Assembly: GCA_937931205.1 (NCBI GenBank) | Contig: CALHBF010000018.1 | Span: 1-64,000 of the forward strand | Direction of reading: 5' to 3' | Length of the DNA: 64,000 nucleotides | Source of the DNA: an uncultured Bacteriovoracaceae bacterium | Lineage (GTDB): Bacteria > Bdellovibrionota > Bacteriovoracia > Bacteriovoracales > Bacteriovoracaceae | Part shown: positions 7,487 through 55,710 of the stretch, piece after piece | How positions within the stretch are numbered: the stretch's first letter is position 1 | Layout: the number at the start of each line of letters is the position of its first letter | Notes under the pieces: generated by a model | Databases searched by the model: none | Seen by the model: the letters and a program-made list of their open reading frames with translations, nothing else | Told to the model about the DNA's origin: nothing | Program-made: the position numbers and the translations under genes

Positions 7487-8176
7487 ATGACTCAGTATTT
7501 GCTCTATTATTGGGATGTCCCATTTCGCGGAGTTTTCCCTCAACTTTTTCTTGAAGAAATTGGGGCCGATTACCAATGGCATGATGCCTCAGAAATCTAT
7601 CCTGATAAAAGTTTAAAAATTCACAATCCAGGAATGGCCCCGCCTTATCTCTTTGATGTTAAGACAGAGATATATTTGGCGCAAATGCCTGCGATCCTGA
7701 TGCATCTGGCCCGTGAATATGATTATCTTCCCAAACGCACTGAAACCTTGGATCTCGCTCTAAAGACTATTCTTGATTGTAATGATGTCTTAATGGAGGT
7801 CACCAATTATTTTGGGCAGCGTATGTGGAATAAAAAAGATTGGAATGAGTTTCGAACTGCGCGCCTGAGCAAATGGATGAAGATATTTGAACAAACCGGA
7901 TTGGATCATGGCCTTAAATCCGAAAATGGTTATCTGTTAGGTTCAAAGATCAGTGTGGCAGATATTGCTACCACGGCCCTTTTTGGAACTCTTGTTCATT
8001 CATTTCCTGAGCTTGAAGTTGATCTTCTCGATCACGCTCCACACGTATTAAAACTCTGTCAAAGAATCGAAGAAAGGCCTGCTCTTCGAGAATTTTTGAG
8101 AAAACAAAGAGAAAAGTTTGGACAGATATATTGTGGAGGGGAGATTGAAAAATCACTTCGTGAAATGATGTTCTAA
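7487..8176 (+). CDS. Glutathione S-transferase family protein
   Basis: This 229-residue protein has two-domain GST organisation. The N-terminal thioredoxin-like half contains YYWDVPFRG and the cis-Pro region (MAPPYL), followed by a helical C-terminal domain with GYLLGSKISVADIATTALFG, the conserved N-capping motif (SxxD) of GSTs. There is no Cys in the usual N-terminal active position; a Tyr or Ser near the start may serve. A clear Shine-Dalgarno (CAGGAGAA) precedes the ATG. It would conjugate or reduce electrophiles with glutathione; the substrate is unknown. Confidence 0.8.
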   Translation: MTQYLLYYWDVPFRGVFPQLFLEEIGADYQWHDASEIYPDKSLKIHNPGMAPPYLFDVKTEIYLAQMPAILMHLAREYDYLPKRTETLDLALKTILDCNDVLMEVTNYFGQRMWNKKDWNEFRTARLSKWMKIFEQTGLDHGLKSENGYLLGSKISVADIATTALFGTLVHSFPELEVDLLDHAPHVLKLCQRIEERPALREFLRKQREKFGQIYCGGEIEKSLREMMF

Positions 8177-8480
8177 GTTATCCTTCAGTTGCTTCAAAAT
8201 TTAAGAAAAATTGAGTCAGTATTTGTTTCATATCTAACGGATCTCTGCGGGGTAAAATCCCTGATTCTTTTAGGCATTTCTCCATAATGATCACCATTTA
8301 CATTTCTTAAATTGAAAAAAATGACGGCATTAAGTTTTTGAAATCCCAGTCAAATTTGAAGAAAAACCTTTACTCGACTGCCAGTGCGGGTTGCTTGTTA
8401 ATTTTGAATGTTGAAAGATAACTCATTAAGCAAAACGCAAGTTCACTAGGACTGTGAGCGAGTATTCCAGGAGGGAATTA
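8177..8480. other. 304-bp intergenic region
   Basis: No open frame of interest, strong hairpin or repeat is seen. AGGAGGG at 8469-8475 is the ribosome binding site of the next gene. Confidence 0.5.
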
Positions 8481-9227
8481 ATGAATAAGTTATCTATTTT
8501 GCTTACGACTACGATGTTGTTAAGTTTTATTTCATGCGGGAATTCCAAATCAAACAATAGTGATGAATCACATACCCCAGCTAATGGTTCGACTATTAAG
8601 GATTCGATATCTAGTTCAGAGATTAAAACTGAAGATGATGACTCTGTTAATGGAGCTGTTACGCCGGAAAATGATTTGCAGGAAGAGACTGCTACTACTA
8701 TTTCATCAACGTCGAAACTTCCGGCCTTGGCGCTCAGTTTTAAGACGAATATCACTATGATGAATCTAACAGCTGCCCAAAAAACGAAATACAATAAAGC
8801 AATTGCCATGGTTAAAAAAGTTGTTGCAACTGAGGCCTTTAGAAAAAAAGTTCTTGCCCATACCTATGCGGGTAAAACTCAGTTCGCCAATAATAATGGC
8901 AAGACAAATTCGCAGATTTATCAATCAATTCTTGATGCGGCCGAATCTTTAAAACCTCTCAAAAATAACACGATGGATTTAGGGGTGAAAATGTATTATG
9001 CGGCCAATAGTGTTGTTGGATACACTTCAACCTCTATCACTTACATCAATGTGAATACCAAGTTTTTTAATAGTTATGCTACAAACCAAGTCGCTGGTAA
9101 CTTGTTCCACGAATGGCTACATAAAATAGGCTATTCACACGACTCATATTCAACCACTAGAAGACCATACTCTGTTCCGTATGCTATCGGATATATGGTG
9201 AGAGATATTGGTAAGAGTTTTCTTTAA
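8481..9227 (+). CDS. Lipoprotein with metzincin-like zinc-protease motif
   Basis: This 248-residue protein starts MNKLSILLTTTML and has a lipobox-like FISCG, so it is probably lipidated. I placed the start at 8481 because AGGAGGG lies 6 bases upstream and the lipoprotein signal then begins correctly; an in-frame GTG at 8454 is less likely. After a Ser/Asp/Glu-rich linker (about 20-75) comes a helical domain. Near the C-terminus is HEWLHKIGYSHD, an HExxHxxGxxH zinc-binding pattern like that of metzincin peptidases. It could be a surface-attached protease. A 27-base gap separates it from the small Cys-rich exported gene downstream. Confidence 0.7.
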   Translation: MNKLSILLTTTMLLSFISCGNSKSNNSDESHTPANGSTIKDSISSSEIKTEDDDSVNGAVTPENDLQEETATTISSTSKLPALALSFKTNITMMNLTAAQKTKYNKAIAMVKKVVATEAFRKKVLAHTYAGKTQFANNNGKTNSQIYQSILDAAESLKPLKNNTMDLGVKMYYAANSVVGYTSTSITYINVNTKFFNSYATNQVAGNLFHEWLHKIGYSHDSYSTTRRPYSVPYAIGYMVRDIGKSFL

Positions 9228-9253
9228 CATTTGACGAGATTCCAGGGGGAGTT

Positions 9254-9523
9254 ATGAAACATTTATTACTTATGGCCAGTTTGTTTTTCATCTTTAATGT
9301 ATATGCTGAAACAGTTGATAACGAAGAAGGAAGAAAATATGTACCACCAACTGATAGTGAGATAAGCGCCAATCGATCTTGCTTTCAAGAACTGGAGCGA
9401 CAGGGATGCAGAAGCCTAGAGGAAGATCCTGAACAGTTTCGATCTTGTCTTAGTAATACCCATCTAGTTTTGGATGAACACTGTAAAAAAATGATGCTTG
9501 AGTTGTACGGAACGAAAGAATAG
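9254..9523 (+). CDS. Small exported Cys-containing protein
   Basis: This 89-residue protein has a signal peptide (MKHLLLMASLFFIFNVYA). The mature part has four cysteines in a C-x8-C-x14-C-x11-C-like arrangement, with helical charged segments between them, suggesting two disulfides. A strong Shine-Dalgarno (AGGGGGAG) lies 3-9 bases before the ATG. It probably forms an operon with the zinc-protease lipoprotein upstream and ends at a bidirectional terminator. Its function is unknown; partner or inhibitor of the neighbour is a guess. Confidence 0.6.
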   Translation: MKHLLLMASLFFIFNVYAETVDNEEGRKYVPPTDSEISANRSCFQELERQGCRSLEEDPEQFRSCLSNTHLVLDEHCKKMMLELYGTKE

Positions 9524-9526
9524 TTT

Positions 9527-9560
9527 TTAGGTGTAGAAGACAGGACTCTTCTACACCTAA
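9527..9560. terminator. Bidirectional terminator
   Basis: TTAGGTGTAGAAGA (9527-9540) and TCTTCTACACCTAA (9547-9560) form a perfect 14-bp stem around CAGGAC, between convergent genes ending at 9523 and 9565. Confidence 0.85.
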
Positions 9561-9564
9561 TGTC

Positions 9565-10137
9565 TTAATCCTGAATTCGTGCACTAAGAGTATAGGGCTG
9601 TCTCACCTCACTATAACAAAGCTCCACCGGTATAGTCGTATCTGCCCAAGTATGGACTAAGTACTCTTTCTCAGCTTCAAGTAAAATGCCCTTAAACTGT
9701 TTTCTGGCGAGTGTTAGAGACGGTGCTTTATGTCCTGCTGGTAACAGTTCAGGGAATAGAATGAGAGATTCTGCAATTTCATTTAAGGTTAGAGTTTGAG
9801 CTTGAGCAAGTCGAACTCTCAACTCTTCAGATTTTGCAATTTTTAGTTTGATCTTGGTAAGTCTCTCATTAAAAACATTATTTTTGCGATTGTTTGCTCT
9901 TGTCTTGGCGGCCTGTCTTTCCTTCGCCTCATACTCTTTTTGCTCACGCTTACCTTCTGGAGATTCGCAGTAGGCGATATATTCTGCTTTTTCTTCTTCA
10001 GAAAGACCTTCGAGGTAGGCTTCTAGCTTCTTAGGTGAATATCTATATCTTAAGTTTGCATAGATTGATTCAGTAGGAGTGAAGTCTAGGTTGCTGGCGG
10101 CAACGAGGTCGCTGAGGTTTCTTTTCTCTGTCTTCAT
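9565..10137 (-). CDS. Charged helical protein of unknown function
   Basis: This 190-residue protein has no signal peptide. Residues about 35-125 are dominated by Glu, Lys, Arg and Ala (KREQKEYEAKERQAAKTR) and are likely long helices or a coiled coil. The C-terminal 70 residues look globular (LVHTWADTTIPVELCYSEV). A good Shine-Dalgarno (AAAAGGAT) precedes the ATG. I do not recognise a family. It stands alone between two terminators. Confidence 0.6.
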   Translation of the reverse strand: MKTEKRNLSDLVAASNLDFTPTESIYANLRYRYSPKKLEAYLEGLSEEEKAEYIAYCESPEGKREQKEYEAKERQAAKTRANNRKNNVFNERLTKIKLKIAKSEELRVRLAQAQTLTLNEIAESLILFPELLPAGHKAPSLTLARKQFKGILLEAEKEYLVHTWADTTIPVELCYSEVRQPYTLSARIQD

Positions 10138-10248
10138 CGGGATCCTTTTTACAGGAATAATAATACAGGTATTAAGAATGAAAAGTCATAGATGAAATGG
10201 TTTTTTTGAGATTTTATTTAAAAATATGGCCATCAACTAGAAAAACTC

Positions 10249-10270
10249 AACGCGTGGATATCCACGCGTT
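10249..10270 (-). terminator. Terminator of the desaturase gene
   Basis: AACGCGTGGA-TA-TCCACGCGTT is a perfect 10-bp palindrome located 22 bases after the desaturase stop. On the minus strand it is followed by GAGTTTTT. Confidence 0.8.
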
Positions 10271-10292
10271 TTCAATAGGTCGCTGAAAAGTT

Positions 10293-11390
10293 CTAGAGAG
10301 TCGAAAAAGTTTCGTTAGTCTTGGGATGAATAAGCTCGTTTGAATTCTTATAAATTCTCGGTGTCTGATAAAGATATTTGAGCGCCTTCCACTTTGGCAT
10401 ATGCTTATATTTAGTCGGATAGTGCTCTTTTAAAAGTGCATGAATCTTTTTTGAATGAGCGCATGAGACTCTTGGAAAGAGATGGTGCTCAACATGATAA
10501 CCAAAATTTAAATGAAACATTTCTTGCAGAGGATTTGTTGTCACTGTCAGCGAGTTCTCAAGAGGGTCATTTATTTTTGTTAGAGGCGAAATATTGTGAT
10601 TCGTTGAGATGTAGCTCAAAATCGAATAGTTCTGTACTAAGAATGGAATAAGAACTAGCCAAAGAAAGTTCTGGGCCCCTACGAAATACACATAGCTTCC
10701 AAGTGCAGCAAGAATAAAGATAAATTCTTTTGTTACTCTGGAGTGATCCATCTTGTCCCACATCTTGCTCTTAAAACGCATGTAAACAGTGTTGATGATT
10801 GACTGAAATGAGAACCAGTAGAAGAAGTATAAATAGCTGATAGGGTTTTTAGATCCTGGAGATAGATCAAAAACAAAGCGCATGTACTTACTTCGCTTGT
10901 ATACAGATAAGGTCGGGAAAGCATCTGGATCTTTATAGATCAACTGAGTGTTTCCATGGTGTAGAGTATTGTGCCAAAAGCGCCAGTATGTTGGAGAAAC
11001 AAAAAATGGTGCCAAGGCAATCATTCCAATCATATCTTGTAAAAAACGAGATTTAACAATTGAGCCATGAAGAGTTTCGTGAGCAAAAAATCCAAGAGCA
11101 GTATTTAGCTGCCCAATGGCAAATGCTATAATGAGTTTCACATACCAAGCAGGGTCTAACGTCATCACAATGGCGATTAATGAAATATTGATCGTTAGAA
11201 ATGTGAAGAAATAGCCAAGTCGAGCTGGATTTCTAAGGAAGACTTCCTCGGGGAGAAATTTCTTAAGTTCTTGCTGATAAAAAGAAAGAGTTTTTAGGTT
11301 TGATTCAGGTTTATTTTCTGATTTTGTGACTTCTTGTTCTTCTAAATTGGGAACAAGATTTTTCGATTCAGATACAGTATCTAAGTTCAA
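10293..11390 (-). CDS. Membrane fatty acid desaturase
   Basis: This 365-residue integral membrane di-iron enzyme has the three His boxes of the family: HETLHG, HNTLHHG (HxxHH type) and HVEHHLFP. Hydrophobic segments lie between them, including a pair near residues 55-95 and several around 190-260. It introduces a double bond into acyl chains, probably membrane lipids, using reduced ferredoxin, flavodoxin or cytochrome b5-like donors. The N-terminal 35 residues are polar and Glu-rich. Regiospecificity cannot be read from sequence. A perfect palindrome (11499-11514) lies about 110 bases upstream and may be an operator. The gene ends at the hairpin at 10249-10270. Confidence 0.9.
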   Translation of the reverse strand: MNLDTVSESKNLVPNLEEQEVTKSENKPESNLKTLSFYQQELKKFLPEEVFLRNPARLGYFFTFLTINISLIAIVMTLDPAWYVKLIIAFAIGQLNTALGFFAHETLHGSIVKSRFLQDMIGMIALAPFFVSPTYWRFWHNTLHHGNTQLIYKDPDAFPTLSVYKRSKYMRFVFDLSPGSKNPISYLYFFYWFSFQSIINTVYMRFKSKMWDKMDHSRVTKEFIFILAALGSYVYFVGAQNFLWLVLIPFLVQNYSILSYISTNHNISPLTKINDPLENSLTVTTNPLQEMFHLNFGYHVEHHLFPRVSCAHSKKIHALLKEHYPTKYKHMPKWKALKYLYQTPRIYKNSNELIHPKTNETFSTL

Positions 11391-46384: not shown

Positions 46385-46897
46385 ATGAGTTTTCTTTTCC
46401 ATAAAATCATTTTTCTTATTCTTATTACCCTGAACATCTCAAGTGCTGTTGCCCAAGATTGGCCAAAACAATTGGGAGAAGGCTGGATTAAAGGTGATGA
46501 GAGTAATGTGAGTGATCATTCCCTTTTTAATCATCAGAAGAATCAGTCTATCGTACTTAAAACTTCAAAAATACCGATGGGTGGAATTGTTTTAGCAGAC
46601 ATGGCAGATGAGTTGTTGCTTGAGCAGGCATTTAGAGGCAAAGAGTTTTCGGACAAGGTTTATGGGCATCATCAGATAGAGAAAGTTTCTGAACTCATCG
46701 AGCGCAGTTCTGGGGCGATTTATCTCAAGAGAAAAGAAAGTTTTAAAAATGACAAGAATATAGAATTTTTTCGAATCAACCGAGTCATTATTCAAAACGA
46801 TAATTATTATAATGTAGAGCTTATCTGGCCGAAAGATCAGAATGAGTTAGTTGAGAAATCTGCGATTGAGCAGTTTGAGAAACTAAATGTCTTATAA
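46385..46897 (+). CDS. Exported protein of unknown function
   Basis: This 170-residue protein has a signal peptide (MSFLFHKIIFLILITLNISSAVA). The mature part is alpha/beta with QLGEGWIKGDESNVSD at the start and VELIWPKDQNELVEKSAIEQFEKL at the end. No Cys and no known family. TGC-TATCAT lies 5 bases before the ATG without a Shine-Dalgarno. It overlaps the next exported gene by 11 bases, so the two are coupled and probably work together. Confidence 0.6.
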   Translation: MSFLFHKIIFLILITLNISSAVAQDWPKQLGEGWIKGDESNVSDHSLFNHQKNQSIVLKTSKIPMGGIVLADMADELLLEQAFRGKEFSDKVYGHHQIEKVSELIERSSGAIYLKRKESFKNDKNIEFFRINRVIIQNDNYYNVELIWPKDQNELVEKSAIEQFEKLNVL

Positions 46898-48500
46898 AGG
46901 ACTGGCCTTAGCTTTTTTTCTTTTCTTCCTGCAACTAACAGCAGTTTTTGGGAAGGAAGAGCAATGTAGTCCATATGATCTTCCTTATCAGTCATTTGCC
47001 CTTCCTTTAAAAAATGCTTCATTGTCTCTTGCTTGTTGTGGGAAAAGCAAAAATGAGCCAGGCTTTTATCTCAGTTCCCAAGACAAAAAATATTCATATG
47101 AATCATGCTTGGCCCGTTATAAAAATGGAATGCCTGCTTCGTCGAGTTCAAATAAATTCGGCTTCCTTGAATGTATAGGTGCTGGAATGACTCAAGCGTA
47201 TGAGTCTATTAAAGATAATATTACCAGCATTTGGGGAATGGTCACAGAACCGCTCGCTTTTTTATCTGACCTCTCTGAATTAGGGAAAATGCTCATTGAT
47301 AAAGAAGGTCGAACTAAGCTTTATCAATTCATAAAGAAGAGTGTTCAAGACAAAATGGGCAATGTTAAGCAATGTCTTAACAAGAGCGAGATTGAAGAAG
47401 AAAGCTGTAAAATCGCTGGTCAATTTATCGCTAATTTCGTTCCTCCTGTCATCATGGTTAAGGCCATCGTTAAGTCGGTTAAGTTAGGAAAAGCGACTAA
47501 AGAACTCTCTGCTGCTATTGATAACACCATAAAGAAGAAAAAAACGACTGTTGTTGTTCCCAAAAATACGGGGATTAGAGTTTTCAGTCAGGCCGAGATC
47601 AAAAAGAATGCACTTCTTGCTCCACGTGATCGGGTAAGCGCTTTTGAAAAATTGGCAGGAGTTAAGGCCGGCGCTTTTAGTGGAAATCGCGCAAAGTTTG
47701 ATGCCATCATTGCTGCTCATAATCTCGGTGGTACTGTAGGTAAGCTAACCTTCGGGCAAATTCGTGATCGCGTAAGGCTACTTCGCTCAAAAGGTTTTAC
47801 AGATAAAGAAATCAGACTTGGCCTTGATGCAGGAATATTTGGACATTTGGATGCCAATCCAATGGATAAGGGAATCGTCTTAGCAGCTCTACCCAAGCCA
47901 GATACAGCATTGCAGTCAGCGAAGGTCGTATCACGCATTCCAGATACTAAATATGGGTCTGGGCAGTCATTGTTTAAGGGTGACAATAATGACGGGATTG
48001 ATATCCTTTCAATTGGCAATCAAAAAGTTTTCTCTAAAACAAAATATGACCCAGCTGTGAGAAGGTTTTCTTCACAGCAAGTACGTATGGTGCAAGATAG
48101 TTTTGTTAATGAAAGTAAATTTGCCAAGAAGTTGAGTGATTTGGGTCTTGGGCCTAAATACTATGGTTCAAAAATTTCTTCTGATGGAAAATACTCTATC
48201 GCGACCGAATTTGTTGACGGGTTTGAAGTTCACTTAGGAGACACTGTTTCCAATATTAAGGAACTCAAACTTGGGACAATTCATGAAATGAAGCAGAAGG
48301 CCCTGAAGGCCGTTGAGCACGGAATTGATCCGTTTGATCTGCAGTTCAGAGTCGATAAAAACGGAACTCCTTTTATTGTGGACCCTGAGCACTTTTCAGT
48401 TCTTGATCCTAAAAGAAAAGGTGAAGTTCTTAAAGAGATTGAAAGTGATTTTGCTGATCTTCTCAATCAGAAGCGTTTGCAGAATGTTCCCAAACGCTAA
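46887..48500 (+). CDS. Exported protein with kinase-fold-like C-terminal domain
   Basis: This 537-residue protein has a signal peptide (to about VFG-K), Cys-containing N-terminal segments, a helical middle (about 100-230) and a region rich in Gly and basic residues (230-330). The last 160 residues resemble a protein-kinase or APH-like fold: Lys384 in VFSKTKY, Glu409 in VNESKFAKKLSDLGLGPKYYG, a hinge-like YSIATEFVDG, a catalytic-loop-like HGIDPFDLQF (His478, Asp481) and VDPEH (Asp499) where DFG would be. This is pattern recognition, not a firm assignment. An exported kinase-like protein in a presumed predator suggests an effector. It overlaps the LysR gene by 4 bases tail to tail. Confidence 0.6.
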   Translation: MSYKGLALAFFLFFLQLTAVFGKEEQCSPYDLPYQSFALPLKNASLSLACCGKSKNEPGFYLSSQDKKYSYESCLARYKNGMPASSSSNKFGFLECIGAGMTQAYESIKDNITSIWGMVTEPLAFLSDLSELGKMLIDKEGRTKLYQFIKKSVQDKMGNVKQCLNKSEIEEESCKIAGQFIANFVPPVIMVKAIVKSVKLGKATKELSAAIDNTIKKKKTTVVVPKNTGIRVFSQAEIKKNALLAPRDRVSAFEKLAGVKAGAFSGNRAKFDAIIAAHNLGGTVGKLTFGQIRDRVRLLRSKGFTDKEIRLGLDAGIFGHLDANPMDKGIVLAALPKPDTALQSAKVVSRIPDTKYGSGQSLFKGDNNDGIDILSIGNQKVFSKTKYDPAVRRFSSQQVRMVQDSFVNESKFAKKLSDLGLGPKYYGSKISSDGKYSIATEFVDGFEVHLGDTVSNIKELKLGTIHEMKQKALKAVEHGIDPFDLQFRVDKNGTPFIVDPEHFSVLDPKRKGEVLKEIESDFADLLNQKRLQNVPKR

Positions 48501-49312
48501 CTGATGAATGATTTTTTTAAGCATTCAAAGATAAGTTTGCCTTCCTTGGTTTTAATCATTTCCGGATAACACACTAGCGATAGATGGTCTTTAAAAGTTG
48601 GTGTGTTGCTGATCAGTTTTAGATCTAAGTTCTGTGCCTTTACGACCTGTGCCGGCAAAATACCAATCCCTGCACCGGAATCAGTAAGGTGAGCAATCAA
48701 TTCTAAATTAGGCACTTCAATGGTTTCTTTTGGGGCCAGTTTCCAGCGAGAAAGTATCGAGTGGGCCTGAAGCATCTGCGGATTAAAAATCAGTTTATCC
48801 TGATACCTTTTTTTCGATTCCCAAGCATGAACTGTATCTGTTCCAATTGTTTTGATAATGAGTCCTTGTAGTGAGAGCGGATTCATCACAATACCGAAGT
48901 CAATTTCACCACTGGCGACCATTTTGTTGATTTGTGCAGAAGTATTAGTCACTACTTCAAAATCGATCTTACTGTTTTCTTCAAACATTAATTTCAGAAA
49001 ACGTCCCAATACAAACATCCCAACTGAGGGATGGCAGCCAATTTTAAACTTCAGATTACTTCGGTGTCCCTTAATATACTCTAGCCTTTTAAGAGCTTCC
49101 TGAGCTTCTGGTAATAGGTCTTTACCTTGAGGTGTAAGTTTTATCCCTTCACGACTTCTTATAAACAGAGGGTATCCCAATTCTGTTTCTAATTTCTTTA
49201 TGCCTAAAGAAAGAGAAGGCTGGGCCATTCCTAATTTTTCAGATGCTTCAGAGAGAGTAAGGGATTCTGCCGTAACTAGAAAGTTTTCAAGATCTTTGAA
49301 GGTGATGCTCAT
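48497..49312 (-). CDS. LysR-type regulator of the isonitrile cluster
   Basis: This 271-residue protein has an N-terminal winged helix (LENFLVTAESLTLSEASEKLGMAQPSLSLGIKKLE) and a two-lobed effector domain (KIGCHPSVGMFVLGRFL, then LIAHLTDSGAGIGILPAQVV). It is slightly shorter than typical LysR proteins (about 300). It is divergent from the isonitrile synthase gene with a 90-bp gap that holds a T-N11-A LysR box, so it most likely controls that operon, as PvcR does in Pseudomonas. Confidence 0.88.
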   Translation of the reverse strand: MSITFKDLENFLVTAESLTLSEASEKLGMAQPSLSLGIKKLETELGYPLFIRSREGIKLTPQGKDLLPEAQEALKRLEYIKGHRSNLKFKIGCHPSVGMFVLGRFLKLMFEENSKIDFEVVTNTSAQINKMVASGEIDFGIVMNPLSLQGLIIKTIGTDTVHAWESKKRYQDKLIFNPQMLQAHSILSRWKLAPKETIEVPNLELIAHLTDSGAGIGILPAQVVKAQNLDLKLISNTPTFKDHLSLVCYPEMIKTKEGKLIFECLKKSFIS

Positions 49313-49344
49313 ATTGGTAATTACCTATGATTAGTATTGATACC

Positions 49345-49388
49345 ATTGTATTTCACAATAGATTTCTTTTGTCTATAACTTGATAGAC
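49345..49388. promoter_or_regulatory. LysR box and promoter of the isonitrile operon
   Basis: ATTGT-ATTTC-ACAAT (49345-49359) contains TTGT-N5-ACAA, a T-N11-A LysR motif. It overlaps a good promoter: TTCACA (49352-49357), 16 bases, TATAAC (49374-49379). GTCTAT-AACTTG-ATAGAC (49371-49388), a second perfect dyad, covers the -10 and start region. Confidence 0.6.
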
Positions 49389-49402
49389 CAAAGGGGCAAG
49401 AT

Positions 49403-50302
49403 ATGAACATTCAAGAGGTTACTAAGATACTTTCTCAAAGAGCGATCGAAAAAGATTTCACAGGATTTGATTCTTCGCCAGTTTTTAATGCTATTGCTAA
49501 GACAATGCTTGAGGGCGGCCCGCTTGTTTTTCTTCTTCCGGCCTTCCCTGCTAAAAGTCCGAGCCAGAAAAAGGCCTTTGGGAAAAATCCCGATTTGGGT
49601 GAAGTCCTGGCACTGCAGAATCTTCAAAAAATGTGTCAGGAGATTTCAGAAATCTATCCCGCGGGGGCTCAGGTCATGATTTGCTCGGATGGTAGAGTTT
49701 TTAGTGATGTGGTGGGTGTGAGTGATGAAGACATTGATCTTTACCAGAAGGGTGTTCATGCCATTATTCAAGATTATGAGCTGGACCATCTTAAACTCCT
49801 TTCTATGGACGATCTTTTCCCTGGAAATAATCCTGAAGAGCTGAGAAGTCTTTTGGAAGAAATCTATTGCGAGGATCTGGGAGTGATCAGACATAACGTC
49901 ATTAATGATGAAAAAACCAGTAACCTTTTTAATGGCCTTCATCGTTTTCTTAAAGAAGACCAGCGAGAGCTTTTTCATGATATGGGGCAAAATGCTTTCA
50001 ATCGTCTGATGAAAGAGCGCGCTTTCGAGCTTCTACGTCGCTCGGATGGTTGGTCAAAGCTTATTGAAGAGCATTTTAGAGATGGTATCAGGTTATCTAT
50101 TCATCCTCATCCGATTACCCATTCAAAACTTGGTATCCGCTTAGTGAATGCTAATTCGAAATGGGCAACTCCTTGGCATAACGTATTAGTGAAATTTCCT
50201 GACCGCATGGAGTTGATGCCCCATAAAGAGGCCCTTGATTTAGGAGCACAGATTAATTTTGAGCGAGGTCGTTATGCTTTTTTTGAAGCACCAAAATCTT
50301 AG
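49403..50302 (+). CDS. Isonitrile (isocyanide) synthase, PvcA/IsnA/Dit1 family
   Basis: This 299-residue enzyme matches the PvcA/DIT1 family: GGPLVFLLPAFPAKSPSQKKAFG, PDLGEVLALQNLQKMC, YPAGAQVMICSDGRVFSDVVG, RLSIHPHP and KLGIRLV...TPWHNVLVKF. Known members turn the amino group of tyrosine or tryptophan into an isonitrile using ribulose-5-phosphate as carbon donor. AGGGGCAAG precedes the ATG. It is the first gene of an operon with a TauD-type oxygenase (29-base overlap), a P450 and an MFS exporter. Whether the substrate is Tyr or Trp cannot be decided here. Confidence 0.9.
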   Translation: MNIQEVTKILSQRAIEKDFTGFDSSPVFNAIAKTMLEGGPLVFLLPAFPAKSPSQKKAFGKNPDLGEVLALQNLQKMCQEISEIYPAGAQVMICSDGRVFSDVVGVSDEDIDLYQKGVHAIIQDYELDHLKLLSMDDLFPGNNPEELRSLLEEIYCEDLGVIRHNVINDEKTSNLFNGLHRFLKEDQRELFHDMGQNAFNRLMKERAFELLRRSDGWSKLIEEHFRDGIRLSIHPHPITHSKLGIRLVNANSKWATPWHNVLVKFPDRMELMPHKEALDLGAQINFERGRYAFFEAPKS

Positions 50303-50942
50303 TGATCAGGATTTACTAAATTTGGCCCAAAAACTCTCAGATAAGGAAGGACCTCTTGAGGATAAAGTTCTTCATTGGGATTTTGGACCGATTATGAATA
50401 TGAAGTTTGATCCAGATGCTAAGAATTATCTGTTTTCAAGTCAGAGAGTTCCCCTTCATTGGGATGGAGCTTTTTATAAAACTCCTAAGAAACTGCTTTT
50501 CTATTGCACAGAAACTTCAGGAAGTGGCGGAGAGACTTTTTTTGTCGATACGACCTTAGTTTGGGAATCGCTCTCGGAGAGCGAGAAAGATATTTGTCGA
50601 AAAGTAAAACTTCGTTATGAGACTGAGAAGTTATCTCATTACGGAGGAGTCTTTGAAACAAATCTGGTTACGACTCATCCTGATACAGGGCAAACGATTC
50701 TTCGCTTGGCCGAAAGAGTGGAAACAGAACTGAATCCAGTAAAGCTGACCATCACAGGAGTAACAAATCCGTGGGGATTTTATGAGTGGTTAGTGAATAA
50801 GTTTTATTCGGCCCCATTTCTTTATGAGCACCACTGGCAAACAGGTGATGTACTAGTTATCGATAATTTTCGTTATCTGCATGGAAGACGGGAACTACTA
50901 ACAAATAAAAACAGATCTTTTAAGAGGATACAAATTTTATGA
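50274..50942 (+). CDS. TauD/PvcB-type Fe(II)/2-oxoglutarate dioxygenase
   Basis: This 222-residue protein has the iron triad His62-x-Asp64 in LHWDGAF and distal His203 in LHGRREL, in a TauD-type barrel with GSGGETFFVDTTLVW. PvcB-type enzymes act on the PvcA product to introduce the vinyl double bond or release CO2. This one is shorter than Pseudomonas PvcB (about 290), missing N-terminal material. The ATG at 50274 follows GCGAGG; a TTG at 50259 is also in frame. It overlaps the P450 gene (ATGA). Confidence 0.85.
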   Translation: MLFLKHQNLSDQDLLNLAQKLSDKEGPLEDKVLHWDFGPIMNMKFDPDAKNYLFSSQRVPLHWDGAFYKTPKKLLFYCTETSGSGGETFFVDTTLVWESLSESEKDICRKVKLRYETEKLSHYGGVFETNLVTTHPDTGQTILRLAERVETELNPVKLTITGVTNPWGFYEWLVNKFYSAPFLYEHHWQTGDVLVIDNFRYLHGRRELLTNKNRSFKRIQIL

Positions 50943-52207
50943 ATACAGACATGAGAATAACAAAATCAGGAGAGTCATTTCACGAGTTTAAAAAAAGAAG
51001 TGACGTCGGGCAATTTCCACAGGCCTTTAGTGATTATGTCAAAAGTCACGGGGATATTTATTTTTGGGAGAAGGGGAATTTTCATGTCATTACCAAAAGT
51101 GATCATGCCAAGGAAATTCTTTTATCAGATGCTTTTAGCGCTGATCGAGGGAGTTTTTTTATTTCTCGTATGCCAAATATGGATCTCTCCTTAATTCAGG
51201 ACTTTTTCTCAGTTGTTCGTAAAATGATGGTGATGAGCGATGATGAGGATCATCTGAAGAAAAGAAAACTGTCTTTAAAAGGATTTGATGATCAGGTACT
51301 TTTGCGTTTTAAAAGTGTTATGAGTAAAACGATTGATGATCTGGTATCTAGTATTAAAGATCAAGACACATTTGAATTTGTTTCGGCTATTTCAAGCAAG
51401 CTGCCTTCAACTGTTCTGGCCGATCTCTTTTGTATTCCTAATGAAGATCGTCATCTCTTCCTTGAACATTCAAACACCATGACCGGTTTCTTTGGTGGAG
51501 CAAGCAAGTATCAGAATGAGGATGGAGTTAAGGTAAATAACTCGGCCAGTTTTTTGAAAAAATACTTCGAACGATTAATTGATGAGAGAACAAAATCCCC
51601 CGGAGAAGACTATGTATCACAAGTTTTAGTGATGCAAAAAGAATTGGATCTCACTCGTGATGAAGTCATCTCTCAATTAATTATGATGTTAGTGGCCGGG
51701 ATGGCGACTACCACTGACCAGATTAATAATTGTCTTTTTTTGATGGTGAATCATCCTGAGGTTCAAGAAGAGGTAAGAGCGAAGAGAGGTCTTCTTATTC
51801 CGATGCTTGAAGAATTTAAAAGACTTGATCCCGCAGTGACTTTTATCTTTCGTGTGGCCCGTAAAGAAACAATGATTGGCCCTCAGAAGATACTACCAGG
51901 TGATGTGATCTTTATTTCAACTCATGCAATCAATAGAGATATGCCGGTTGAAGACGCTCCTAATGAAATCAGATTAAATCGAATACAAAACCATTTTGCT
52001 TACGGATTCGGTTCTCATTTCTGCATTGGTGCCAAACTTGCTCGTATGGAGATCAATACCTTATTCGAAAAATTATTGGACTTAGGAATAAGCTGGAAAC
52101 TCGATGAAGAGAAGCTTTCTCTGAGAGATCATTACTCACTTTCTTTTTCGGGTTTTTCAGAAATTCATCTCAAACAGAATAAATCTTGCCCTAGTCATTC
52201 GTCATAA
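50939..52207 (+). CDS. Cytochrome P450
   Basis: This 422-residue soluble bacterial-type P450 has the heme-thiolate loop YGFGSHFCIG with Cys362, ExxR in LEEFKRLDP and an I-helix around residues 250-262. The I-helix reads AGMATTT where most P450s have AGxE/DT, so the acidic residue of the proton relay is Ala256. It overlaps the TauD gene by 4 bases, so it belongs to the isonitrile pathway, where it could hydroxylate or couple the aromatic product. Redox partners are not encoded nearby. Confidence 0.9.
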   Translation: MNTDMRITKSGESFHEFKKRSDVGQFPQAFSDYVKSHGDIYFWEKGNFHVITKSDHAKEILLSDAFSADRGSFFISRMPNMDLSLIQDFFSVVRKMMVMSDDEDHLKKRKLSLKGFDDQVLLRFKSVMSKTIDDLVSSIKDQDTFEFVSAISSKLPSTVLADLFCIPNEDRHLFLEHSNTMTGFFGGASKYQNEDGVKVNNSASFLKKYFERLIDERTKSPGEDYVSQVLVMQKELDLTRDEVISQLIMMLVAGMATTTDQINNCLFLMVNHPEVQEEVRAKRGLLIPMLEEFKRLDPAVTFIFRVARKETMIGPQKILPGDVIFISTHAINRDMPVEDAPNEIRLNRIQNHFAYGFGSHFCIGAKLARMEINTLFEKLLDLGISWKLDEEKLSLRDHYSLSFSGFSEIHLKQNKSCPSHSS

Positions 52208-52248
52208 GTGGAGTTAAGATAGTCCGATTTGATACAAAGGAAATTATT

Positions 52249-53427
52249 GTGCAGAAAGGACTGTCTCGTTTTCAAGTGATTTTCATGATGCTCACCTGTG
52301 CTTTTGTGGTGGGGAATCTTTACTATAATCAACCGCTTCTCGGTATTCTTGCTCGTGATTTCGGTGTTTCAGAGAAAGAAATTTCGATTATTCCGGCATT
52401 CACTCTTATCGGTTATGCTCTGGGAATTCTTTTTTTAGTTCCTCTTGGTGATATGCTTGAACGCAAAAAGCTCTTACAGGTATCGATGTCGATTGCTGGT
52501 CTCCTGGCCATCGCTCTGACTTGGAGTCCAAGTGTTAGTGTCCTTGCTACTCTTAGTTTTTTGATGGGTTTTTGTAATATTTCAGGAACTGTGTTGATTC
52601 CTTTTTCTGCAAATCTTGCACACCCTTCTGAGCGAGGCAAAGTAGTAGGGGTTGTATTGTCTGGAATTTTACTTGGATCTTTAATGGCCAGAACAGTTGC
52701 AGGATTTATGGCCGATAATTTCGGCTGGAGATCAGTTTTTCTCTTAGCTGGAGCTGTGAATTTTATTTTGGCGATCATGACCCAATGGGCACTTCCTAGT
52801 TCGGAAGCTTCTTTTAAAGGAAGTTATAAAAATCTTCTCATCTCCTCATGGCATCTGGTGCGTGATTATGGAATTGTTCGTGAAGCGGCCATTATGGGAG
52901 CAATTCTTTTTGGTTCATTCTCAGCTTTCTGGACCACTTTAACTTTTCTACTAGAAGGTGAGCCTTTCCATTACTCAGCTCAAACCATTGGTCTTTTCGG
53001 AATTTTAGGAATGATTGGTGCTTTGGCCGCTCCTCTGGCCGGTCGTTACTCTGATAAAAAAGGAGCAGCGGCAACTATTCGTTTAGGGCTCTACTTTTCG
53101 ATGGGAGCTTTTGCGCTACTAGCAGCTTCTTCTCACCATATTTGGGGTGTCATTATCGGAGTGCTGTTACTTGATTTAGGAATTCAGGTAGCTCATATTT
53201 CCAATCAAGCTCGACTATTTTCTTTATCTGAGGATGCTCGCTCACGTTTGAGTTCTATTTATATTTTTGCTTATTTTGTAGGTGGAAGTTTAGGCTCAAT
53301 TATTGGCTCTCAATTATGGGCCTGGGGCAAATGGCCGGCAGTGAGTATGGGCGGCCTTGTTTTCTGTCTGATTTCAGCAGTCATCTTCTATCGTGGACAG
53401 AAAATCAGAAGACTTTTGCCAGCATAG
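52249..53427 (+). CDS. MFS transporter, probable exporter of the isonitrile product
   Basis: This 392-residue protein has about 12 hydrophobic segments. The loop-2/3 motif PLGDMLERKKLL and the drug/H+ antiporter pattern (VLSGILLGSLMARTVAGFMADNFG) place it in the DHA1 group of major facilitator exporters (YnfM/arabinose-efflux-like). It starts with GTG at 52249, with AAAGGA upstream, 41 bases after the P450 stop. A terminator follows, so it closes the operon. Export of, or resistance to, the isonitrile metabolite is the likely job. Confidence 0.88.
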   Translation: MQKGLSRFQVIFMMLTCAFVVGNLYYNQPLLGILARDFGVSEKEISIIPAFTLIGYALGILFLVPLGDMLERKKLLQVSMSIAGLLAIALTWSPSVSVLATLSFLMGFCNISGTVLIPFSANLAHPSERGKVVGVVLSGILLGSLMARTVAGFMADNFGWRSVFLLAGAVNFILAIMTQWALPSSEASFKGSYKNLLISSWHLVRDYGIVREAAIMGAILFGSFSAFWTTLTFLLEGEPFHYSAQTIGLFGILGMIGALAAPLAGRYSDKKGAAATIRLGLYFSMGAFALLAASSHHIWGVIIGVLLLDLGIQVAHISNQARLFSLSEDARSRLSSIYIFAYFVGGSLGSIIGSQLWAWGKWPAVSMGGLVFCLISAVIFYRGQKIRRLLPA

Positions 53428-53437
53428 TAAATCAAAG

Positions 53438-53478
53438 AAGTTAGGTAGCTTTTAGAAGCTATAAAAACTACCTAACTT
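53438..53478 (+). terminator. Terminator closing the isonitrile operon
   Basis: AAGTTAGGTAG (53438-53448) pairs perfectly with CTACCTAACTT (53468-53478). The intervening bases contain a smaller AGCTT-TTAG-AAGCT hairpin. Confidence 0.8.
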
Positions 53479-53526: not shown

Positions 53527-55710
53527 ATGCAAATCAATGTCCGTTTTTTAGAAAATCTTCGCTTAGAAGCTAGTTTCGATGATTTTACTATCATCGCAGA
53601 TCAACCTATTCGCTATAAGGGAGATGGTACGGCCCCTGGCCCTTACGATTACTTTTTAGCGTCTTCGGCACTGTGTGCGGCCTATTTCGTAAAGGTCTAC
53701 TGCGTGGCCCGAGATATTCCGACGGAAGATATTCGTGTTACTCAAAATAACATTGTTGATCCTGACAATCGCTATAATCAAACTCTCAATATTGAGATTG
53801 AACTTCCTGAATCCATTTCTGAGCACGATCGCGAAGGCATTCTGAAGGCCATGGATCGCTGTACTGTTAAGCGAGTGATTCAGAATAACCCTGGCTTCAA
53901 AATCACCACCAAAGATGTTTTGGGCAGTGATAACTCTGTTTTTGAACAGTTCCTGGGAATTGAGACAAAAACTATGATTCCAGGTAAGGATGCAAGTCTT
54001 GAAGAGACCATTGCTAAGCTCACAGGACTCTTGGAGAAGTTAGGAATCAAGATTGAAATTGCCTCTTGGAGAAATCCTGTTCCTCATGTGTGGTCGGTAC
54101 ACATTCGAGATGCTGACTCTCCGATGTGTTTTACCAATGGTAAAGGGGCTACAAAAAATGCGGCCCTTTGTTCGGCCCTTGGCGAATATTTAGAGCGTAT
54201 CAGTACGAACTATTTCTATAGTGATTTCTTCTTAGGTGAAGAAATTGCGGCCGGTGATTTTGTTCATTACCCTAATGAGTCTTGGTTCAAAGCAGGCCCG
54301 AAAGATTCTCTTCCTAAAGAATTGATGGATGAGCATCTGCTTGATGTTTATGGTAATGATGGTGAGTTGAAATTCTCACACCTCATTGATACGAACTCTG
54401 GAAATGCTGCACGCGGTGTGTGTGCTGTTCCGTATGTTCGTCAGTCTGATAATAAAACGGTTTATATTCCGGTTAACCTGATTGCTAATATTTTTGTTAG
54501 TAATGGAATGAGTGCGGGAAATACTATTTATGAGGCCCGTGTACAGGCCCTTTCAGAAATCTTTGAGCGTGCTGTAAAAAATGAAATCATCGCCAATGAA
54601 CTGACTCTTCCAGATGTTCCTCGCGAAGTTTTAGAGCGATACCCACAAATTTTAGAAGGGATTGCTAAGCTGGAAGAACAAGGATTCCCAGTACTGGTAA
54701 AGGATGCTTCTCTTGGTGGGAAATTCCCTGTAATGAGTGTCACATTGATGAATCCACGAAACGGCGGAGTTTTTGCTTCTTTCGGTGCTCACCCTAATTT
54801 TGAAGTGGCGCTAGAGAGAACTTTAACTGAACTCCTTCAAGGAAGAAGCTTTGAAGGAATGAATGATATTGCTCCTCCAACGTTTAATGAATTTGCCGTG
54901 AAAGAACATAACAATATGGTGGATCACTTCATCGATTCAACAGGCGTGATCTCTTGGAAGTTCTTTAGTTCAACTCCTGATTTTGAATTCTGTGATTGGA
55001 ACTTCTCTGGCTCAACAGAGGAAGAATTTAATCATCTGATGGGTATATTAAAAGAAATGGAGAAAGAAGTTTACATTGCTGATTACCAGGAACTAGGGGC
55101 ATGTGCGACACGTATCATTGTGCCGAATTATTCAGAAATTTATCTTCCAGAAGAATTGATTTGGGATAACCACAACCGAGCGCTTAACTTTAGAGAAGAT
55201 ATCCTAAACCTTCATCAGCTTGATAATAAGAAGCTAACTAATCTTGTGAAGAAATTAGAGGAAAGCGAAATTGATAATTACACGACGATTGCTGAACTTA
55301 TCGGCATCGCCTTTGATGAAAACTCCATCTGGGGTCAATTGACCATTGGTGAAGTGAAGGCCTTGAGTTATCTGGCCCTTAAAAAATTCGAAGAGGCACG
55401 TGATGTGGTTGAGATGCTTTCAACATTCAGTAACTCACTTCCTGAACGTAAAAAATTCTATCAGGCCTTGAATGTGGCCCTCGAAATTACCATCAGAGAT
55501 GATCTTGATCTTGCAGACTACGTTTTCAATTTAAACCGCATGTATGGCGAGAAGCTGATGGACGCGGTTATCAAGAGTATTTCTGGTGAGATTCGTTTTT
55601 ATGGAGTTAATCCAACGAATATGAAGCTAGAAGGAATTGATAAACATTTGAAGTTTGTGGAGAGTTACCAGAAGCTACAGAGAGCAAAAAGAGAATTTCA
55701 CAAAAGATAG
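53527..55710 (+). CDS. OsmC-YcaO fusion protein
   Basis: This 727-residue protein has two domains. Residues about 1-145 are OsmC-like (PYDYFLASSALCAAYFVKVYC and the second Cys in MDRCTVKRV, a peroxidase-type Cys pair). Residues about 165-570 are a YcaO domain like that of E. coli YcaO, with NGKGATKNAALCSALGEYLERIS, GNAARGVCAVPY and TLTELLQGR contributing to the ATP/Mg site. The last 150 residues are helical repeats (TPR-like). E. coli YcaO assists RimO in methylthiolation of ribosomal protein S12. The fused form is known in other proteobacteria. It follows the isonitrile cluster but has its own promoter. Confidence 0.88.
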   Translation: MQINVRFLENLRLEASFDDFTIIADQPIRYKGDGTAPGPYDYFLASSALCAAYFVKVYCVARDIPTEDIRVTQNNIVDPDNRYNQTLNIEIELPESISEHDREGILKAMDRCTVKRVIQNNPGFKITTKDVLGSDNSVFEQFLGIETKTMIPGKDASLEETIAKLTGLLEKLGIKIEIASWRNPVPHVWSVHIRDADSPMCFTNGKGATKNAALCSALGEYLERISTNYFYSDFFLGEEIAAGDFVHYPNESWFKAGPKDSLPKELMDEHLLDVYGNDGELKFSHLIDTNSGNAARGVCAVPYVRQSDNKTVYIPVNLIANIFVSNGMSAGNTIYEARVQALSEIFERAVKNEIIANELTLPDVPREVLERYPQILEGIAKLEEQGFPVLVKDASLGGKFPVMSVTLMNPRNGGVFASFGAHPNFEVALERTLTELLQGRSFEGMNDIAPPTFNEFAVKEHNNMVDHFIDSTGVISWKFFSSTPDFEFCDWNFSGSTEEEFNHLMGILKEMEKEVYIADYQELGACATRIIVPNYSEIYLPEELIWDNHNRALNFREDILNLHQLDNKKLTNLVKKLEESEIDNYTTIAELIGIAFDENSIWGQLTIGEVKALSYLALKKFEEARDVVEMLSTFSNSLPERKKFYQALNVALEITIRDDLDLADYVFNLNRMYGEKLMDAVIKSISGEIRFYGVNPTNMKLEGIDKHLKFVESYQKLQRAKREFHKR

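Follow-up and report, generated by a model that had tools for sequence, protein, structure and literature searches.

The window analysed here is a 64,000-nucleotide stretch (positions 1-64000) of contig 18 of the 3.08-Mb draft genome (completeness 86%) of an uncultured Bacteriovoracaceae bacterium. It carries a LysR-type regulator gene and, divergent from it, genes for a PvcA-type isonitrile synthase, a PvcB/IsnB-type oxygenase and a cytochrome P450, followed by a major facilitator superfamily (MFS) transporter gene (Table 1). Five intact genes had been predicted at these coordinates, and open reading frames and family profiles confirm them: Pfam scores are 237.9 bits for DIT1_PvcA (PF05141; curated cut-off 26.4), 98.8 for TauD, 80.1 for p450, 136.7 for MFS_1, 61.1 for HTH_1 and 57.7 for LysR_substrate, which excludes chance reading frames. 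The predicted spacing is also as described, with an overlap of 29 bases between synthase and oxygenase (oxygenase ATG at 50274), an overlap of 4 bases between oxygenase and P450, and a 41-base gap before the MFS start codon, a GTG at 52249. The proposal that synthase, PvcB-type oxygenase and P450 form one functional unit under the LysR regulator is backed by the family assignments, the conserved residues, the co-occurrence and co-divergence of the enzymes, and purifying selection (dN/dS). These sequence-based results suggest that the operon very probably encodes a real, conserved and working isonitrile pathway with a P450 step.

Table 1 Features of the isonitrile locus and its borders in the window.
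Feature	Position	Strand	Basis or remark
LysR-type regulator, 271 aa	48497..49312	-	Pfam HTH_1 and LysR_substrate; divergent from operon
LysR-pvcA intergenic region	49313..49402		Inverted repeat ATTGTATTTCACAAT and TTACCTAT motif; candidate function
PvcA/IsnA-type isonitrile synthase, 299 aa	49403..50302	+	DIT1_PvcA profile, 3e59 match, conserved motifs
PvcB/IsnB-type Fe(II)/2-oxoglutarate oxygenase, 222 aa, N-terminally short	50274..50942	+	TauD profile; 7tcl, 3eat
Cytochrome P450, 422 aa	50939..52207	+	p450 profile; heme Cys, ExxR and Thr conserved
MFS transporter, 392 aa; pathway membership unsure	52249..53427	+	MFS_1 profile
17-pair hairpin, terminator-like, between MFS gene and OsmC-YcaO gene	53438..53478		Terminator scan

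Enzymes of the PvcA family join the amino nitrogen with a carbon of ribulose-5-phosphate, giving an isonitrile acid. We consider it probable that the operon encodes a three-step isonitrile pathway of synthesis by PvcA, desaturation by the oxygenase and oxidation by the P450, and in its first step PvcA would be expected to turn an aromatic amino acid and ribulose-5-phosphate into the isonitrile acid. The best solved relative of the window synthase is PvcA of Pseudomonas aeruginosa (3e59; 4e-53, 183.5 bits), and from its sequence we infer that the enzyme makes an isonitrile from an aromatic amino acid. Yeast Dit1 belongs to the same Pfam family and its product has been argued to be formyl tyrosine (PMC7345447), and the oxygenases PIsnB and PvcB accept N-formyl tyrosine (PMC9467999). 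The synthase could on these grounds make an N-formyl amino acid that the P450 cross-links, as in the yeast dityrosine pathway, but this is very unlikely given the close match to bacterial PvcA, the isonitrile-type oxygenase beside it and a report that a fungus carrying a Dit1-like enzyme yields an isonitrile (PMC13005658).

Following isonitrile formation, the Fe/2-oxoglutarate oxygenase would be expected to convert the acid by desaturation, and probably decarboxylation, into a vinyl isonitrile. Its pocket residues resemble those of WelI3-group enzymes, for which the Westiella protein has been assayed with Trp, and not those of PIsnB or PvcB. The best solved relatives of the oxygenase are 7tcl (1e-29), which its residue numbers indicate to be PIsnB, and PvcB (3eat; 6e-21). 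Its iron ligands H62, D64 and H203 are invariant in both alignments, as are W35 and R218, so that the residues characteristic of PvcB/IsnB enzymes are in place; R218 and W35 match PIsnB Arg265 and Trp74, which in that enzyme hold or support the carboxylate of the substrate (PMC9467999). At 222 aa the protein is short compared with other P450-linked relatives (233-270 aa, from mechanically called reading frames) and with the solved proteins (281-293 aa), as might be seen in a decayed or repurposed cluster with an inactive oxygenase. Decay is nevertheless highly improbable, since the identical 222-aa form, with all catalytic residues kept, occurs in five other genomes (G081, G087, G088, G089 and G024), and oxygenase dN/dS is 0.09-0.13 in two Bdellovibrionota pairs.

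Following desaturation, the P450 would be expected to oxidise the vinyl isonitrile, most likely by placing a hydroxyl on the ring or side chain. The heme cysteine, the ExxR motif and a threonine of the I helix are hallmark motifs of P450s, and the corresponding Cys362, E292-x-x-R295 and T258 are invariant in 21 P450 rows (window included). The stretches MTxFFGG and DPxVxFxFR are also invariant in these rows, and this conservation suggests one shared substrate. The proteins identifiable by name within the top 60 of 429 solved relatives are bacterial P450s. A Fer2 (ferredoxin-type) protein is encoded on contig 10 of the same genome. No second P450 was found in the window's 86%-complete genome, and a tblastn search with the P450 (E <= 1e-40) against 72,556 plasmid records returned only one distant P450, 28.5% identical.

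Co-occurrence was assessed in 368 Bdellovibrionota genomes, 43 of which have a PF05141 match. These genomes fall into type B, with the PvcA-oxygenase-P450 arrangement of the window, and type A, the other 27 PvcA genomes. Types were assigned from gene neighbourhoods and the synthase tree; G027, G101 and G104 were typed by the tree alone, whose P450-rich part has only 81% SH-aLRT support, and 26 of the 27 type-A genomes are in the tree (G188 is a fragment). The P450 (E <= 1e-60) is present in 16/16 genomes of the P450 part of the tree and in 0/27 of the others, a contrast for which no Fisher value is used because that test ignores relatedness. Searched from the other side, the P450 profile finds 18 of the 368 genomes at this threshold, 17 of them above 590 bits, and 16 of these 17 have PvcA; in the seventeenth, G049 (78% complete), the P450 lies close to the start of a contig and PvcA was not detected. 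The trio is contiguous in 13 of the 16 type-B genomes, split by contig ends in two (G101 and G027) and about 590 kb apart in G104, where the P450 lies together with an acetyltransferase-like gene (L164, 6752-8571) away from pvcA and the oxygenase gene.

In type A, a flavin monooxygenase homologue lies 676-874 bases after PvcA in 25 of the 27 genomes (377-1092 bits, query included; Pfam match FAD_binding_3, one protein), and the remaining two cases are a contig end and a gene fragment. The homologue is absent from all 19 type-B stretches from the 16 genomes. Thus, the third slot is filled by either the P450 or the flavin monooxygenase. At the two positions that separate PIsnB-type from PvcB-type enzymes (see below), most oxygenases of type A have R and N, fitting the PIsnB type, while three have R and C and two could not be read by the pattern.

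The wider spread was followed with an alignment scan, from which 80 of 121 relatives were examined; counts outside Bdellovibrionota are therefore partial. A single-protein scan of named genomes gave no matches. Of the 80 loci, 21 have this P450 type beside the oxygenase or fused with it, and ten of the 21 lie outside Bdellovibrionota by title: Parachitinimonas caeni, six Legionella, two gammaproteobacterial metagenome-assembled genomes (MAGs) and one Kangiellaceae MAG. The P450 trio thus spans two phyla, Bdellovibrionota and, going by the named taxa, Pseudomonadota. In the Kangiellaceae MAG (L115) a single 697-aa protein consists of TauD (20-255) and p450 (311-678) domains, a fusion that ties the oxygenase and P450 steps together. 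In this region (L115, 537-7260) a cNMP-binding/PvcA/DUF924 fusion is followed in a row by an O-methyltransferase, another, divergent PvcA and the TauD-P450 fusion. On the P450 tree, Parachitinimonas is placed within Bacteriovoracaceae (96/89 with G004), and its LysR protein scores 344 bits against that of the window, which together point to transfer. PvcA also stands beside other P450s in Tsukamurella (L148, 6289-10063) and Streptomyces (L138, 6122-8774), apparently by separate recruitment. Seven Bacteroidota-type loci (L122, L126, L129 and L133-L136, about 8001-10780; five Hymenobacter, Taibaiella and a Flavobacteriales MAG) have an enlarged PvcA of 539-652 aa and a TauD protein of 581-598 aa, followed in 6/7 by a gene for 370-437 aa.

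Shared history was assessed on trees from which 12 duplicate loci (contigs shared by named loci and phylum genomes) were left out. In a quick tree, 25 of 26 P450-linked oxygenases fall in one clade of 27 rows (SH-aLRT 99), and the two unlinked rows in it are G104, in which the P450 has moved, and the MAG L104. Pairwise distances of the three enzymes correlate across 23 loci (r 0.80-0.83; 0/2000 permutations). For the pairs measured, dN/dS is 0.06-0.14 for the three enzymes; the acetyltransferase-like gene gives 0.16 and LysR 0.02, from one pair each.

The amino acid used can be approached through signatures of the synthase and oxygenase. The second synthases of L102 and L112 read FNG, as does that of the window, while P. 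aeruginosa PvcA reads YRA. Both loci were taken as wel genes from strain names and gene order, and wel clusters are reported for the L102 strain, Fischerella muscicola, and for Fischerella sp. PCC 9431 (L112) (PMC4236562). Across 92 synthase rows, [F/Y/V][N/D] at positions 176-177 accompanies an oxygenase HxDGA motif in 49 and another state accompanies HxDGM in 39; four have HxDGA without the signature.

Several observations weigh against the three-step reading or against its finer detail. The synthase scores 185.2 bits against NF045653, the NCBIfam equivalog for L-Tyr isonitrile synthase, with a cut-off of 600, so its amino acid substrate is not readable from that name. The signature that separates Trp from Tyr enzymes undergoes a single change over the PvcA tree (one independent pair), and therefore shows the half of the family and not by itself the amino acid. 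Over 44 columns that contrast WelI with Pseudomonas PvcA, the window has 13 WelI-like and 6 PvcA-like states, 23 that are neither and 2 gaps, a count that says little because 5/8 type-A control rows lean towards WelI as well (12-17 WelI-like against 7-14 PvcA-like over the eight). A published selectivity rule assigns K/R107 with N/H188 to vinyl isonitrile formation (PIsnB type) and L107 with C188 to isocyanoacrylate (PvcB type) (PMC9467999); the window oxygenase has Y68 and A146 at these positions and thus fits neither type. The rule may not span the family, since the wel-type oxygenase of L102 (HWDGAFA, RFAE; window HWDGAFY, RLAE) also lacks the PIsnB-rule residues, although Westiella WelI1 and WelI3 together converted L-Trp into indole vinyl isonitriles (PMC4236562). 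The window oxygenase also lacks about 39-50 N-terminal residues of PIsnB and PvcB. As for the unit itself, the synthase tree requires six changes of the P450 label. Four synthases next to a P450 are placed outside its P450 part (L105, L108, L119 and L148, the last with a P450 of another kind), as is L115, and L104 lies inside it with no adjoining P450. The fused L115 oxygenase is outside the P450-linked clade, and the correlated enzyme distances partly reflect shared descent.

By ancestry alone, L-Trp would be placed slightly ahead of L-Tyr as the substrate. Tyr was not taken as the default, since by its synthase and oxygenase signatures the cluster belongs to the WelI half, a placement that reflects one ancestral split and is accompanied by a column count that separates type A from type B poorly. 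A pathway that starts from L-Tyr, with the P450 replacing the type-A flavin enzyme and ring-hydroxylating to a catechol, would yield a coumarin- or catechol-type metal binder. It would suit the alternation of P450 and flavin monooxygenase in the third slot within one phylum, and paerucumarin is itself a hydroxylated isonitrile coumarin; with the signatures in the WelI (Trp) half and not the Pseudomonas PvcA half, and ancestry alone not decisive, we regard it as possible but doubtful. The P450 might instead couple two vinyl-isonitrile units into a xanthocillin-like di-isonitrile, as a bacterial counterpart of the fungal xan cluster. The enzyme logic would be that of XanB (synthase-dioxygenase) and XanG (P450), for which dimerisation has been proposed, and the L115 O-methyltransferase parallels the methyltransferase XanE (PMC5974471). 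Coupling appears unlikely, however: the alternative third-slot enzyme of the phylum is a flavin monooxygenase, which suggests oxygenation, phenol coupling would be inapplicable to a Trp-derived substrate, and the solved P450 relatives identifiable by name are bacterial. Synthesis, desaturation and oxidation of a vinyl isonitrile is the preferred reading of the operon.

Following oxidation, the hydroxyl made by the P450 could, in relatives, be capped by a fourth enzyme of the acetyltransferase-like or glycosyltransferase kind. In 28 loci (duplicates again left out), the gene after the P450 is acetyltransferase-like in eight, of UDP-glycosyltransferase type in two (L092 and L082, Bdellovibrio-type; Pfam run on one) and an MFS homologue in one, the window; the rest are other genes, in opposite orientation or unclear. 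Five members were compared with Pfam in all (L067 and four others): L067 and L164 show Acetyltransf_1, whereas L061, L165 and L167 do not. Strong matches to the acetyltransferase-like profile (A5) occur in the 368 genomes only beside this P450, with a profile built from the same eight proteins, one of which comes from the genome with no detected PvcA (G049). A ninth match, in G004, is weak (39 bits) and lies elsewhere; the genome of the window lacks any A5 match. In this lineage alone, the product may be exported by the MFS protein. As a core part of the pathway it was rejected: besides being the next gene in a single locus, it has only one match at E <= 1e-40 in the 25 other genomes of the genus, a 30% identical protein elsewhere in G104.

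The divergent LysR regulator would control the operon, by analogy with PtxR, which activates pvc in P. aeruginosa and belongs to the LysR type encoded next to pvc (PMC3639982). Orthologues 63-74% identical (at least 330 bits) are present in 8 of the 25 other genus genomes and are divergent from pvcA in 6/8; within the genus LysR is better conserved than the enzymes (63-74% versus 47-61%). Two orthologues, in G093 and G084, have no adjoining type-B cluster, so the regulator is not strictly tied to it. Nine LysR-pvcA intergenic regions were compared, and no repeat is common to all of them. The inverted repeat ATTGTATTTCACAAT (49345-49359) has a counterpart at the same offset in G104 and not in the other regions compared. 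In contrast, TTACCTAT stands beside the LysR start codon in 8/9 regions (Parachitinimonas included, not G101) and may simply be the LysR ribosome-binding site.

Cluster GC and GC3 are those of the adjoining genes, and the type-B synthase is found in 7 of the 26 genomes of the genus (window's included; in one of the seven the P450 sits elsewhere), so a recent foreign insertion is not supported. A terminator had been placed at the operon end, and the 17-pair hairpin is indeed present, although the consensus scan passes it on the minus strand only; its plus-strand T run is short, and the four terminator-like sites of the region are no enrichment over shuffles (mean 3.7). Beyond the hairpin lies an OsmC-YcaO fusion gene of an ordinary family (53527-55710; TIGR03549, 1195 bits). 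On the other side, positions 46887-48500 encode a 537-aa protein with a signal-like start, no Pfam match and a C-terminal part that looks kinase-like by eye; the end of this gene overlaps the end of the LysR gene by 4 bases.

Isonitriles are reactive, metal-binding small molecules that readily bind iron. To our knowledge, bacterial PvcA-family pathways with known products (paerucumarin, hapalindole types and rhabduscin) tailor them with flavin enzymes or with prenyl- or glycosyltransferases, and not with a P450. Searches of the open literature on isonitriles or isocyanides in Bdellovibrio and Bdellovibrionota and on bacterial synthase-P450 clusters found neither a Bdellovibrionota cluster nor a product described. 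A new isonitrile product, as originally inferred, is plausible, whereas the gene arrangement itself was recorded for Legionella as early as 2016 (PMC5126622). Within the scope of these searches, the cluster represents a new branch of a type that has received little notice, and there is no description of its P450 family and how widely it is spread, of the fusion, of the flavin-for-P450 exchange or of the varying fourth gene. Bdellovibrionota have been described as predators (PMC8067016). It is conceivable, if speculative, that a bacterial isonitrile pathway with a dedicated P450 family, distributed in part through horizontal transfer among predatory Bdellovibrionota, Legionella and other Pseudomonadota, makes a new class of oxidised vinyl isonitriles (hydroxylated and capped indolyl compounds, or xanthocillin-like dimers) whose targets are copper or heme enzymes in prey or host cells. 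Because the cluster is carried by named strains that are not pathogens, Bdellovibrio bacteriovorus kdesi and Parachitinimonas caeni DQS-5, the product can be sought directly, which would show how a P450 acts on an isonitrile, an iron-binding group, and whether predatory bacteria use isonitriles against prey.

Among the closest known systems is that of Legionella, where isnAB is invariably accompanied by a helix-turn-helix (HTH) protein and a P450; the available passages give no product (PMC5126622). With a contiguous synthase, oxygenase and homologous P450 and a divergent LysR gene, the window cluster belongs to this type. Six Legionella loci share the synthase-oxygenase-P450 order, with P450s 44-48% identical to that of the window, and a LysR-type gene was detected upstream of PvcA in 5/6. 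They differ in that most of their regulators come from a different LysR subfamily (19-30 bits against the window's protein in four loci and 135 in L. worsleiensis, with no regulator detected in L. gresilensis), in that no MFS homologue comes next and in a longer oxygenase. The welwitindolinone/hapalindole proteins WelI1/WelI2/WelI3 share the synthase FNG and oxygenase HWDGAF signatures and the same half of the family (PMC4236562), whereas the wel loci examined have no P450-profile match alongside, and they have two synthases and a prenyltransferase pathway.

In pvcABCD of P. aeruginosa, PvcC and PvcD are flavin enzymes, where the window has a P450. This cluster, which makes paerucumarin, shares the PvcA and PvcB families and an adjacent LysR-type gene, ptxR (PMC3639982), but has the YRA synthase signature, and the window synthase falls under the Tyr equivalog cut-off. 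In the xan cluster of Aspergillus fumigatus (xanthocillin), likened here by gene content, a synthase, a PF02668 oxygenase and a P450 are again combined, with the difference that synthase and oxygenase are fused and the P450 is fungal. The rhabduscin cluster of Xenorhabdus has a glycosyltransferase and is not known to include a P450. It shares IsnA and IsnB with the window cluster, which itself has no glycosyltransferase, while L092 and L082 add a glycosyltransferase-type gene after the P450. The parallel once drawn with yeast DIT1, DIT2 and DTR1 proves weak: yeast has the synthase family and a P450, but the available passages of the pathway accounts include no dioxygenase, the yeast P450 is fungal while that of the window is near bacterial P450s, the yeast product is spore-wall dityrosine, and the MFS homologue occurs in 1/28 loci. 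If a fungal parallel is wanted, the synthase-dioxygenase and P450 of xan would be closer than DIT.

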